From: JADFSZ01 sp022560555 [NCBI: PVC group bacterium]
GTDB lineage: Bacteria; GCA-001730085; JADFSZ01
Direction: 5' to 3'
Assembly: GCA_022560555.1 (NCBI GenBank)
Contig: JADFSZ010000006.1
Span: 1 to 20,048 of the forward strand
Length of the DNA stretch: 20,048 nucleotides
Shown here: positions 1,994 to 4,046 of the stretch, one piece after another
How the letters are laid out: each line of letters begins with the position of its first letter
Numbering within the stretch: position 1 is the stretch's first letter
Notes under the pieces: generated by a model
What the model was told of the DNA's origin: nothing
Seen by the model: only the letters and a program-made list of their open reading frames with translations
Database searches by the model: none
Made by a program: the position numbers and the translations under genes

Positions 1994-2023
1994 TTGACAA
2001 AATTTCCGAAAAAATGCTATATA
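1994..2023 (+). promoter_or_regulatory. strong sigma70-like promoter for the small ORF and Amt-like gene
   Basis: A perfect TTGACA (1994-1999) is followed after 18 bases by TATATA (2018-2023), preceded by the extended -10 dinucleotide TG at 2015-2016. Predicted transcription starts near 2030, leaving a leader of about 30 bases before the ATG at 2060. Confidence 0.7.
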
Positions 2024-2046: not shown

Positions 2047-2054
2047 AAGGAGGT
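2047..2054 (+). promoter_or_regulatory. strong ribosome binding site of the 45-residue ORF
   Basis: AAGGAGGT lies five bases before ATG 2060. It fixes the start of the small ORF and excludes the longer reading from a TTG codon at 1994, which would lie in the -35 element. Confidence 0.75.
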
Positions 2055-2059
2055 GCGCT

Positions 2060-2197
2060 ATGATTATTTCACTGCAGCAGACATATCAGTATCACCGCGA
2101 CCTTTTTGATAAAGCCGCCAAAATATTTCTATCATCATTTTCTACCTTCATCTTAAAACTCTTTCTTAGAACCCGCGTAAACCCCTCGGATATCTAA
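2060..2197 (+). CDS. small hypothetical protein (45 aa) leading the Amt-like gene
   Basis: A 45-residue ORF starts at ATG 2060, behind a strong SD and a strong promoter. I do not recognise a family. The sequence begins MIISLQQTYQYHRDLF. It has a hydrophobic/amphipathic middle (about residues 21-35, rich in Phe, Leu, Ile and Ser) flanked by Lys/Arg, and ends NPSDI. It could be a small membrane-associated protein or a translated leader peptide. It ends 76 bases before the Amt-like gene with no terminator between, so the two are probably co-transcribed. In many bacteria amtB is paired with glnK; this ORF occupies a similar place but is far too short for a PII protein and shows no PII motif. Coding status rests on the expression signals rather than on homology. 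Confidence 0.55.
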   Translation: MIISLQQTYQYHRDLFDKAAKIFLSSFSTFILKLFLRTRVNPSDI

Positions 2198-2256: not shown

Positions 2257-2267
2257 AAAGGAGGTGA
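2257..2267 (+). promoter_or_regulatory. near-perfect Shine-Dalgarno of the Amt-like gene
   Basis: AAAGGAGGTGA matches eleven bases of the usual 16S 3' end complement and lies six bases before ATG 2274. It is the strongest ribosome binding site in the window and suggests high translation. Confidence 0.75.
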
Positions 2268-2273
2268 AACCAA

Positions 2274-3497
2274 ATGTTAAGAAAAATCAAAAAACTGTTA
2301 AGCCGTACACTTGGCGCGTTTACAGGATTTCTCGCACTCGCACTACCGCAAATCGTGTATGCCGCCGACGGCTTGGATAAAGGAGATACAGGCTTGATGC
2401 TGACTTCTACTCTCTTGGTCCTTCTCATGGCACTTCCGGGACTCGCTCTTTTTTACGGCGGACTTGTCCGCAGTAAAAATACTGGTACGGTCATCATGGA
2501 GAGCTACGGGATCGCGATGGTCACAACTATCCTTTATGTTCTCATGGGATATGGCCTCGCGTTTGGACACGGGAACGGACTATTCGGCGGATTGCACAAC
2601 TTTGCTCTAAGTACGCTCTCTGTCGAGAGTCTTGTCGGCACCATCCCCGAATCCCTCTTTATCCTGTTTAATCTCTCCCTCATGATCTTCACCACCGTGC
2701 TCATTATCGGTGCGTTCTCGGGACGGATCAAATATACCTCCGTGCTTCTTTTCGCGGGGGCATGGGGCCTTCTGGTTTATTCACCCGTGTGTCATATGAT
2801 CAAAGGAGGCGGATATTTGTCCCACATTGGTTTGCTTGATTTCGGCGGCGGATCTGTGATCCATATCACAGCCGGTATTGCCGCACTCGTTACAGCACTC
2901 TATTTGTCAAAACGAAATGGCAAAGGACATATCGAACCAAAACCGCAGAACGCAACTATGTTTTACCTCGGAGCCATACTTCTCGTTCTAGGATCACTCG
3001 GTCTTATTATGGGCAGCGTGTTTACCCTCGGAGGTAAAGCCGGAATGGCACTGCTGGTTATGCTCATCGCCGGAGCGATGTCAAGCATCACATGGCTCGT
3101 GATCGATCTATTTCGTCACAAAAAACCTTCGCTTTACGGTTTGTTGACGGGAACCATTATCGGGCTCGTGGGCATCACACCTGCCGCAGGATATATTCTG
3201 CCGCTAGACGCGCTCACGATGGGATTGGTCATCGGACTTCTCGGATACTTTGCATGTTACCATCTCAAACGCCGTTTTGGCTATGACGATATCTATGATA
3301 TCTTCAGTGTGTTTGGTGTCGGCAGTATTCTGGGAATGCTTCTCACCGGAATGTTCGTTGCAGGTCCTATGGGAATCATGCACCAATTGATTATCCAGAT
3401 CAAGGGCGTCAGCCTTGTCGTGCTTTATACGGGAATCGTTACCTATCTGATCTTATATTTTATTGATCGGATGTTCGGTCTTCGTGCTCGCCGATAA
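2274..3497 (+). CDS. Amt/Mep/Rh-family membrane protein, divergent
   Basis: A 407-residue protein of the ammonium transporter fold: a signal-like N-terminus (1-31, as in E. coli AmtB), then about eleven transmembrane segments. Clear family blocks include PGLALFYGGLVRSKN, DFGGGSVIH, KPSLYGLLTGTIIGLVGITPAAGYI and the final FGLR. The pore His equivalent to AmtB H168 is present (H197), as is Asp160 (D189). By hand alignment to AmtB several hallmarks are replaced: second pore His H318 to Phe347, W148 to Lys177, F107 and F215 to Leu, and GWFGFN to GSLGLI. The cytoplasmic C-terminal tail that docks GlnK is missing, as the protein stops right after FGLRARR. The fold is certain, but canonical ammonium transport is doubtful. 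It may be a sensor, an altered-selectivity channel, or a decaying paralogue. It sits in an operon with the 45-residue ORF and ends at a strong terminator. Confidence 0.88.
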   Translation: MLRKIKKLLSRTLGAFTGFLALALPQIVYAADGLDKGDTGLMLTSTLLVLLMALPGLALFYGGLVRSKNTGTVIMESYGIAMVTTILYVLMGYGLAFGHGNGLFGGLHNFALSTLSVESLVGTIPESLFILFNLSLMIFTTVLIIGAFSGRIKYTSVLLFAGAWGLLVYSPVCHMIKGGGYLSHIGLLDFGGGSVIHITAGIAALVTALYLSKRNGKGHIEPKPQNATMFYLGAILLVLGSLGLIMGSVFTLGGKAGMALLVMLIAGAMSSITWLVIDLFRHKKPSLYGLLTGTIIGLVGITPAAGYILPLDALTMGLVIGLLGYFACYHLKRRFGYDDIYDIFSVFGVGSILGMLLTGMFVAGPMGIMHQLIIQIKGVSLVVLYTGIVTYLILYFIDRMFGLRARR

Positions 3498-3523
3498 TTC
3501 GTCTCATTCGAGTCGGAAAAAAA

Positions 3524-3553
3524 CCGCGGAGTTTTCACTCCGCGGTTTTTTTT
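3524..3553 (+). terminator. intrinsic terminator after the Amt-like gene
   Basis: The perfect 9-bp GC-rich stem CCGCGGAGT/ACTCCGCGG (3524-3532 with 3537-3545) has a 4-base loop and is followed by eight T. The run of A at 3517-3523 can lengthen the stem, so it could also work in the other direction. Confidence 0.93.
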
Positions 3554-3608: not shown

Positions 3609-4046
3609 ATGTTTATTAAGCTCATCAAATATTTGATCCCTCTTACTCTTCTTTGGGTGAGTCCCGACACAAGTTTCGCACAAGGCGAAGAGTTCAACGG
3701 ATATTCGCTCGGATACAAAGGCAATGAGATCGGCTATTCAATGGGATACAAACAAGGCTATTCCAAGGACCGTCACGGATACTCATCCGGATATTCGAAA
3801 GATCGATACGGATATCAATGGGGAGAAAAGAATCCCGAGTCAGATTATGACAAATCCCGCTATGGATACAAACTAGGCTATCCTGTCCAAGATAAAGGTC
3901 ATAAATACGGATATTCCAAAGATAAATATGGATACAAGTACGGCTATCCCGACACCCAAGGATACTCCGGATCAAAATATGATTACCCAAAAAAGGTAGA
4001 AAAAGATAAAGAGAAGAAAAAAAGGTTCCGCCTCAATCTTAATTAG
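3609..4046 (+). CDS. secreted Tyr/Gly/Lys-rich repeat protein
   Basis: A 145-residue protein with an N-terminal signal peptide (about 1-24, ending DTSFA before QG). The mature part is built from degenerate GY units: 14 GY pairs and 22 Tyr in roughly 120 residues, often as GYSKDRYGY or YGYKYGYP. It ends in a strongly basic tail (KKVEKDKEKKKRFR). I recognise no named family. Such Tyr/Gly repeats occur in extracellular, cell-wall or adhesive proteins, so a structural or surface role is plausible but inferred. It starts a two-gene unit with the DUF1223 protein, 18 bases downstream. ATG 3609 is the only start that keeps the signal peptide. Translation is probably leaderless given the position of the -10. 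Confidence 0.8.
   Translation: MFIKLIKYLIPLTLLWVSPDTSFAQGEEFNGYSLGYKGNEIGYSMGYKQGYSKDRHGYSSGYSKDRYGYQWGEKNPESDYDKSRYGYKLGYPVQDKGHKYGYSKDKYGYKYGYPDTQGYSGSKYDYPKKVEKDKEKKKRFRLNLN
3714..3984 (+). repeat. degenerate GY-unit coding repeats
   Basis: GGATA(T/C) and GGCTAT (Gly-Tyr) codon pairs recur every 9 to 30 bases. Longer units such as TATTC(C/G)AA(A/G)GA(C/T) (Tyr-Ser-Lys-Asp) recur at about 3759, 3792 and 3912. The pattern fits repeat duplication followed by drift. Confidence 0.6.

Follow-up and report, generated by a model that had tools for sequence, protein, structure and literature searches.

The stretch of bacterial DNA analysed here (20,048 nt, hereafter the window) carries a gene for an ammonium transporter (Amt) homologue, in which the predicted fold of Escherichia coli AmtB goes together with replacement of most of the invariant residues of the conduction path. 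We give roughly even odds (about 0.5) to the reading that this protein is a retained, remodelled paralogue, one that has kept the AmtB fold, had its conduction machinery replaced and no longer carries out canonical ammonium transport.

The features of the locus are collected in Table 1. A preliminary description, made from the sequence without database searches, had credited the gene with an intact frame and with the best ribosome binding site in the window. The frame is indeed open throughout, and the 9-mer AAGGAGGTG occurs only twice on the two strands of the whole window, once before the amt-like gene and once before the 45-aa ORF upstream of it. This ORF, which has no Pfam match, is possibly a leader or a small partner protein; in Methanosarcina mazei, a small protein of 61 aa, sP36, acts on AmtB1 (PMC10714827, in the part of the paper at hand). 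The promoter-like site lies before the same ORF and is absent from the listing of a consensus scan that demands T as the last base; the scan itself gave 8 sites in the window versus 5.6 in shuffles, which is no excess. None of 200 shuffles folded as well as the hairpin that follows the gene, which a pattern scan did not list. A structured leader or riboswitch was considered and rejected, there being no Rfam match in the window and a leader folding z of 0.01 against shuffles. The other ORFs of the window that were tested included no recognisable nitrogen-assimilation gene and gave no PII match. The Gly-Tyr-rich protein encoded further downstream has no Pfam match.

Table 1. The amt-like gene, its candidate signals and its neighbours, in window coordinates.
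Feature	Position	Strand	Remarks
Promoter-like site	1994..2023	+	TTGACA, 18 nt, TATATA; TG before the second hexamer; found by eye
Other copy of AAGGAGGTG	2047..2055		Precedes the 45-aa ORF
45-aa ORF	2060..2197	+	46 codons with stop; upstream of the amt-like gene, same direction
Shine-Dalgarno AAGGAGGTG of the amt-like gene	2258..2266	+	9-mer counted on both strands of the window
amt-like gene	2274..3497	+	ATG start, 407 aa, no internal stop
Layout of the Amt-like protein	2274..3497	+	Signal-peptide-like N-terminal helix, then 11-helix Amt domain
Codon of K177	2802..2804	+	W148 position, S1 site
Codon of F347	3312..3314	+	H318 position, second pore His
Terminator-like hairpin with T run	3516..3553	+	Directly 3' of the amt-like gene; -30.4 kcal/mol, z -7.0
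145-aa Gly-Tyr-rich repeat protein	3609..4046	+	Secreted-looking; repeats GYSKDRYGY and similar; adjoins a DUF1223 protein

By descent the window protein is a member of the Amt/Mep/Rh superfamily. It matches PF00909 with an E value of 3.6e-71 and 240.4 bits against a curated cut-off of 23.2, and falls below the curated cut-offs of TIGR00836 amt (277.5 vs 343.3 bits) and NF007947 AmtB (284 vs 657 bits). PF00909 is the sole domain, reaching residue 405 of 407, with no fused kinase, cyclase or other output domain. An AlphaFold model (pLDDT 80.7, pTM 0.81), a check that the preliminary description had proposed, superposes on AmtB with Z 54.3 and an rmsd of 2.0 Å over 373 residues at 38% identity, and the predicted fold is that of AmtB. 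We regard the fold as well supported to be under constraint, and we infer that a present function is too.

The pore residues were placed with a MAFFT alignment of the window protein, AmtB and 130 other distinct Amt rows, these being the stronger matches among those listed for two overlapping sets of 145 and 290 searched genomes. Here F107 of AmtB corresponds to L136, W148 to K177, D160 to D189, H168 to H197, W212 to S241, F215 to L244, N216 to I245, S219 to S248 and H318 to F347; the H318 region aligns free of gaps, and phmmer against PDB chains pairs the same residues. The hand alignment of the preliminary description, in which H168 and D160 were kept, H318 was Phe, W148 was Lys, F107 and F215 were both Leu and the C-terminal tail was absent, proved right at every position given, and W212S, N216I, A162G, Q104N and A108M are now added to its list. 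Retained are D160, H168, S219, Y140 and the structural glycines. The twin-His pair is incomplete (H168 present, 318 Phe), the S1 site F107/W148/S219 has become L/K/S, the Phe gate F107/F215 together with the S2 residue W212 has become L/L/S, and the conserved tail columns E390 to Y404 are gaps.

In the reference rows F107, W148, D160, A162, W212, F215, N216 and S219 were each found 130 times out of 130, H318 in 129 of 130 (one gap) and H168 in 127 of 130 (three Glu), so that for this sample the earlier statement of a near-invariant second histidine, with the first more often changed, holds. The Glu at the first pore His, as in fungal Mep1 and Mep3, belongs to three prokaryotic Amts (L101, L098 and L123, from genomes G234, G096 and G245). 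With one short row dropped and AmtB added (again 130 rows), 24 columns are strictly invariant, ten of them in the conduction path. The window protein changes seven (F107, W148, A162, W212, F215, N216 and H318), all from these ten, and leaves the other 14 intact (Fisher p 3.5e-4, a guide only, because the path list was drawn up after the differences had been seen). At columns conserved to 85% or more it keeps 64 of 96, below every one of the 130 rows (the lowest of which keep 65, 66 and 70, and AmtB 87), the missing tail making up 7 of its 32 differences.

In AmtB, NH4+ is bound at S1 (F107, W148, S219) and deprotonated, the resulting NH3 moves through the Phe gate and along the hydrophobic pore, and the proton follows water wires bridged by the twin His (as set out in parts of PMC7447429 and PMC10433425). 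The window protein would no longer perform this canonical binding, deprotonation and proton relay. Its cation-pi S1 site would be gone, with the ammonium group of K177 perhaps acting as a tethered occupant, and S2 (W212/F215) would be gone too; with Phe at 318 the proton relay should be cut, and the pore not widened as it would be by Ala; loss of the tail should let the protein escape GlnK control; and for ammonium uptake the cell would then rely on the canonical Amt found elsewhere in the genome, on contig C59.

A working ammonium transporter, in which H168 and D160 suffice and an aliphatic gate conducts, fast, poorly selective and free of GlnK control, strikes us as quite unlikely. It would accord with the retention of D160, H168, S219 and Y140. 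Aliphatic replacements at F107, W148 and F215 reportedly keep function, in work credited to Hall and Kustu in 2011. The loss of a single histidine is by itself no proof of lost transport, because AmtB H318A still moves NH4+, in a channel-like manner and with K+ moved too (PMC7447429, in the text available), and single His-to-Ala variants, H318A included, support yeast growth on ammonium (excerpts of PMC3647058). Against this stand the seven invariant path residues changed together, the lysine in the S1 site and the missing tail, as well as the engineered variants of AmtB, where F215A gives almost no growth on ammonium and H168E alone of 14 His variants is effective in methylamine transport (the same excerpts of PMC3647058). 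With S1, S2, the gate and the second His all altered, and given the engineered H318F and His-variant data, we think canonical electrogenic transport has been lost.

For the remodelled paralogue, the job that we weakly favour would be either that of a path, unregulated and electroneutral, through which small uncharged molecules (NH3, for example) pass, or that of a non-transporting ammonium binder. Taken separately, a neutral path seems to us unlikely, though a reading to be reckoned with, and a binder or sensor is doubtful. The suggestion of a sensor in the preliminary description found no direct evidence, the protein having no output domain, no tail and no evident partner; its other suggestion, a channel of altered selectivity, may be right by analogy with H318A, although Phe makes for a bulkier and drier site than Ala does.

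The main rival is relaxed selection, by which a redundant second Amt would have lost its function and be drifting within the limits of a membrane fold, still unbroken; we rate this as possible but rather unlikely. Among the matches listed, no close relative of the window protein was seen in the genome contig collection, in viral contigs or in 290 related genomes, and the nearest relatives are 45-46% identical; the phyla of the two nearest hosts (3 and 12 genomes) yielded no close relative either, and of 12 rows from these phyla the eight complete ones have both His, the four partial ones giving no score at 318. One relative, 46% identical to the window protein, is a canonical amt that sits amid short ORFs on a viral contig of IMG/VR (L202:1031-2374). 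Several measures are what relaxed selection would lead one to expect: an end branch of 1.24, four times the median of 0.3; among 393 compared residues, 120 that none of 15 near relatives has, when each relative compared with the other 14 has 6-92 such residues; two Trp in the core, versus 7-13 in 14 near relatives; and an Ile/Leu/Val/Met share of 0.383 versus 0.308 in near relatives. The long end branch and the two Trp could also be produced in this way, and the genome holds a canonical copy besides. Loss of Glu was rejected as a sign of decay, since it stems from the missing tail (core Glu number 4, versus 3-9 in 14 relatives).

Other observations speak against relaxed selection. From the 120 novel residues, about 4.7 nonsense changes are expected without selection, and no stop or frameshift is present (P about 0.009 for the absence of nonsense changes); the protein departs from none of the 14 invariant columns that lie outside the path; and the gene retains its strong Shine-Dalgarno and its terminator-like hairpin. 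The argument against simple decay made in the preliminary description therefore stands in part, strengthened by the missing nonsense changes and the intact columns outside the path, and weakened by the long end branch.

The host genome is a draft of 1.66 Mb in 222 contigs, 91.5% complete with contamination of 1.98, and contains two Amts. The search for a second, canonical copy, which the preliminary description had proposed, found it on contig C59 (388 bits), where a PII gene (PF00543, E 1.6e-28) comes next. This canonical Amt is only 28% identical to the window protein, so that a hetero-trimer of the two would, judging from sequence, be unlikely. The amt-like gene has a G+C content of 0.488 against 0.441 for the window and 0.434 for C59, and its codon fit of 0.023 is the second lowest of the 15 window genes compared (13 of the other 14 lie at 0.04-0.12). 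In the tree the protein stands apart both from the canonical Amt of its host and from that of the only other genome of the phylum, a placement that is unsure given its support of 87 and the long branch. Higher G+C, low codon fit and tree place together suggest acquisition from outside the lineage, and the paralogue was probably gained in this way. That the whole contig is a stray or an assembly artefact, and the gene foreign to the organism, would be consistent with the fragmented draft, its contamination and the atypical composition of the gene, but is highly improbable: the frame is intact and the family alignment consistent, the window contig carries the genome's only full-length MetRS and is for that reason not an obvious stray, and the contig of the canonical Amt is nearly equal in G+C.

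Loss of H318 has recurred in bacterial proteins under purifying selection. We scanned 84,980 species, one genome each, with a degenerate DNA pattern of the H318 region in which the codon at 318 does not begin with C; the pattern demands the flanking motifs and misses Gln, Pro, CTN-Leu and CGN-Arg at 318. Eighteen of the 58 loci returned code for an Amt-family protein where the pattern matches (L142 and L156 being one species). As a count of such Amts this is a lower bound, since the pattern with a His codon matches 98 of the 136 sequences of the Amt set. The same scan of viral contigs gave four loci, none of them Amt-family. Residue 318 is Phe in the Nitrospirota L154 and L185, in Aeriscardovia L178 and in Lachnospiraceae L167, and Ala, Asn, Ser or Tyr in the other 14, single aligned residues being less sure below about 25% identity (L167, L190 and the Chloroflexota). 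Counted over eleven path positions, changes number at least five in 16 of the 18 loci and two in Citromicrobium L183 and Stygiobacter L164; F107L occurs in six, F215L in seven and A162G in nine, and D160 is kept in all 18, a point in favour of the working transporter considered above.

Trees from which the path columns had been left out require a minimum of six switches between His and non-His, with the window protein counted in. A single origin of the H318-less Amts was rejected (p-AU 2e-8, for 12 of the 18 variants and the window protein versus 32 rows), in a test chosen after the tree had been seen and with long branches in play, and a clade joining the window protein to the Nitrospirota pair was weakly rejected (p-AU 0.046). 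Relatives sharing F347 and K177, which the preliminary description had suggested looking for, were absent from the rows examined (the stronger matches among those listed). The idea that the protein founds an Amt-like subfamily is accordingly unsupported, because no such relative was found and H318 was lost separately in several lineages. In the 12 of the 18 genomes checked for further Amts, a twin-His copy was also present in eight, and the variant was the only Amt found in four (two Aeriscardovia, Stygiobacter and Lachnospiraceae).

Six pairs of genes were compared by the Nei-Gojobori method, with 40 leading and 20 trailing aligned codons dropped. The dN/dS ratio was 0.160, 0.090, 0.097, 0.065 and 0.157 in five variant pairs (the pair L184/L144 having a dS of 1.4, near saturation), versus 0.119 in the sixth, a canonical control from two Nitrospirota genomes. 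Ratios this low mark the H318-less Amts of these pairs as maintained proteins, which counts against relaxed selection in the window protein as well.

Some of the variant loci have features of their own. In the two Nitrospirota loci (L154:391-3142 and L185:4132-6475), an H318F/H168C Amt gene comes immediately downstream of nrfA, which encodes the periplasmic, ammonifying nitrite reductase (PF02335, E 4e-128; NrfA is 95% identical in the second locus), and each genome has a canonical Amt elsewhere. The Aeriscardovia proteins (L142, L149, L152, L156 and L178) have neither pore His, with G, F or W at 168 and N, F or A at 318; a check of three of their genomes turned up no other Amt in two, the three proteins that were aligned retain the tail, and the gene of A. 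aeriphila L142 is followed by one for PII. In the Lachnospiraceae locus (L167:108-1706), an Amt domain apparently devoid of pore His (F168, F318) is fused to PII in one frame. The six Chloroflexota variants (L140, L144, L161, L165, L174 and L184) make up a divergent Amt clade; they carry W215, either Arg or Gln at position 148 and either Ser or Ala at position 318, and a formyltransferase gene (PF00551/PF02911) lies beside two of them, L184 and L144.

The role of the twin His has so far been argued from engineered mutants and from near invariance, and the change of the first His to Glu in fungi is described as the only natural variation of the pair in the portion of a 2020 eLife paper at hand (PMC7447429). 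We found no report of natural bacterial Amts devoid of the second His in the literature searched, which lay mostly outside the subscription journals. Natural H318-less proteins, most of them with several path changes and some shown to be maintained by selection, make it possible to test what the Amt fold can do once the twin-His motif is gone, and they urge caution in annotation, as a PF00909 match does not always denote an ammonium transporter. We suggest, tentatively and as a somewhat unlikely generalization, that Amt folds with a dismantled path constitute a real and repeatedly evolved bacterial functional class, found mostly beside canonical Amts, in which the window protein and the Chloroflexota would have converged on K/R148, G162, S212 and an aliphatic residue at 216, the entrance would be self-occupied, and the hydrophobic pore would carry a cargo other than the ammonium ion or the protein would only sense ammonium.

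Compared with known systems, the window protein has in common with E. coli AmtB the fold, D160, H168, S219, Y140 and the structural glycines, but differs in H318F, W148K, F107L, F215L, W212S, N216I, A162G and the lack of a tail, and no PII gene was recognised beside it. Phe at the second pore His has a laboratory counterpart in the engineered AmtB H318F, the original paper on which is said to be that of Javelle et al. of 2006. This residue is visible in the aligned chain of the mutant (PDB 2npg), whose other path residues, unlike those of the window protein, are canonical, and which crystallised with its fold unchanged (PMC3647058, in part). The Amt-fold receptors Ks-Amt5 and Sd-Amt1 (PDB 6eu6, 8qj3/8qj4) share the fold of the window protein (Z 50-51), and Ks-Amt5 binds ammonium without moving it (from the part of PMC5764959 seen); however, Ks-Amt5 keeps the twin His, the Phe gate and the S1 Trp (PMC10433425, likewise in part), and has a fused kinase, whereas no output domain was found in the window protein. 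Fungal Mep1 and Mep3 are also natural departures from the twin-His motif, but with the first His turned to Glu and with ammonium still transported (according to sections of PMC9040831 and PMC3647058).

Among the natural bacterial variants, the Nitrospirota pair, at about 35% identity, resembles the window protein in F318, L107, L215 and G162, but has C168 in place of H168, keeps W148 and the tail, and differs in its position downstream of nrfA. The six Chloroflexota variants are a separate clade only 22-24% identical to the window protein, from which they differ in W215 (six), W107 (five, with one gap), N219 and Ser or Ala at 318. They too lack His at 318, and they have G162 in all six, S212 in four, Leu at 216 in six where the window protein has Ile, and Arg at 148 in four with Gln in two. 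Four of the six, at 23-24% identity, agree with the window protein in having G162 and S212 together with a basic 148 and an aliphatic 216, which looks like convergence.
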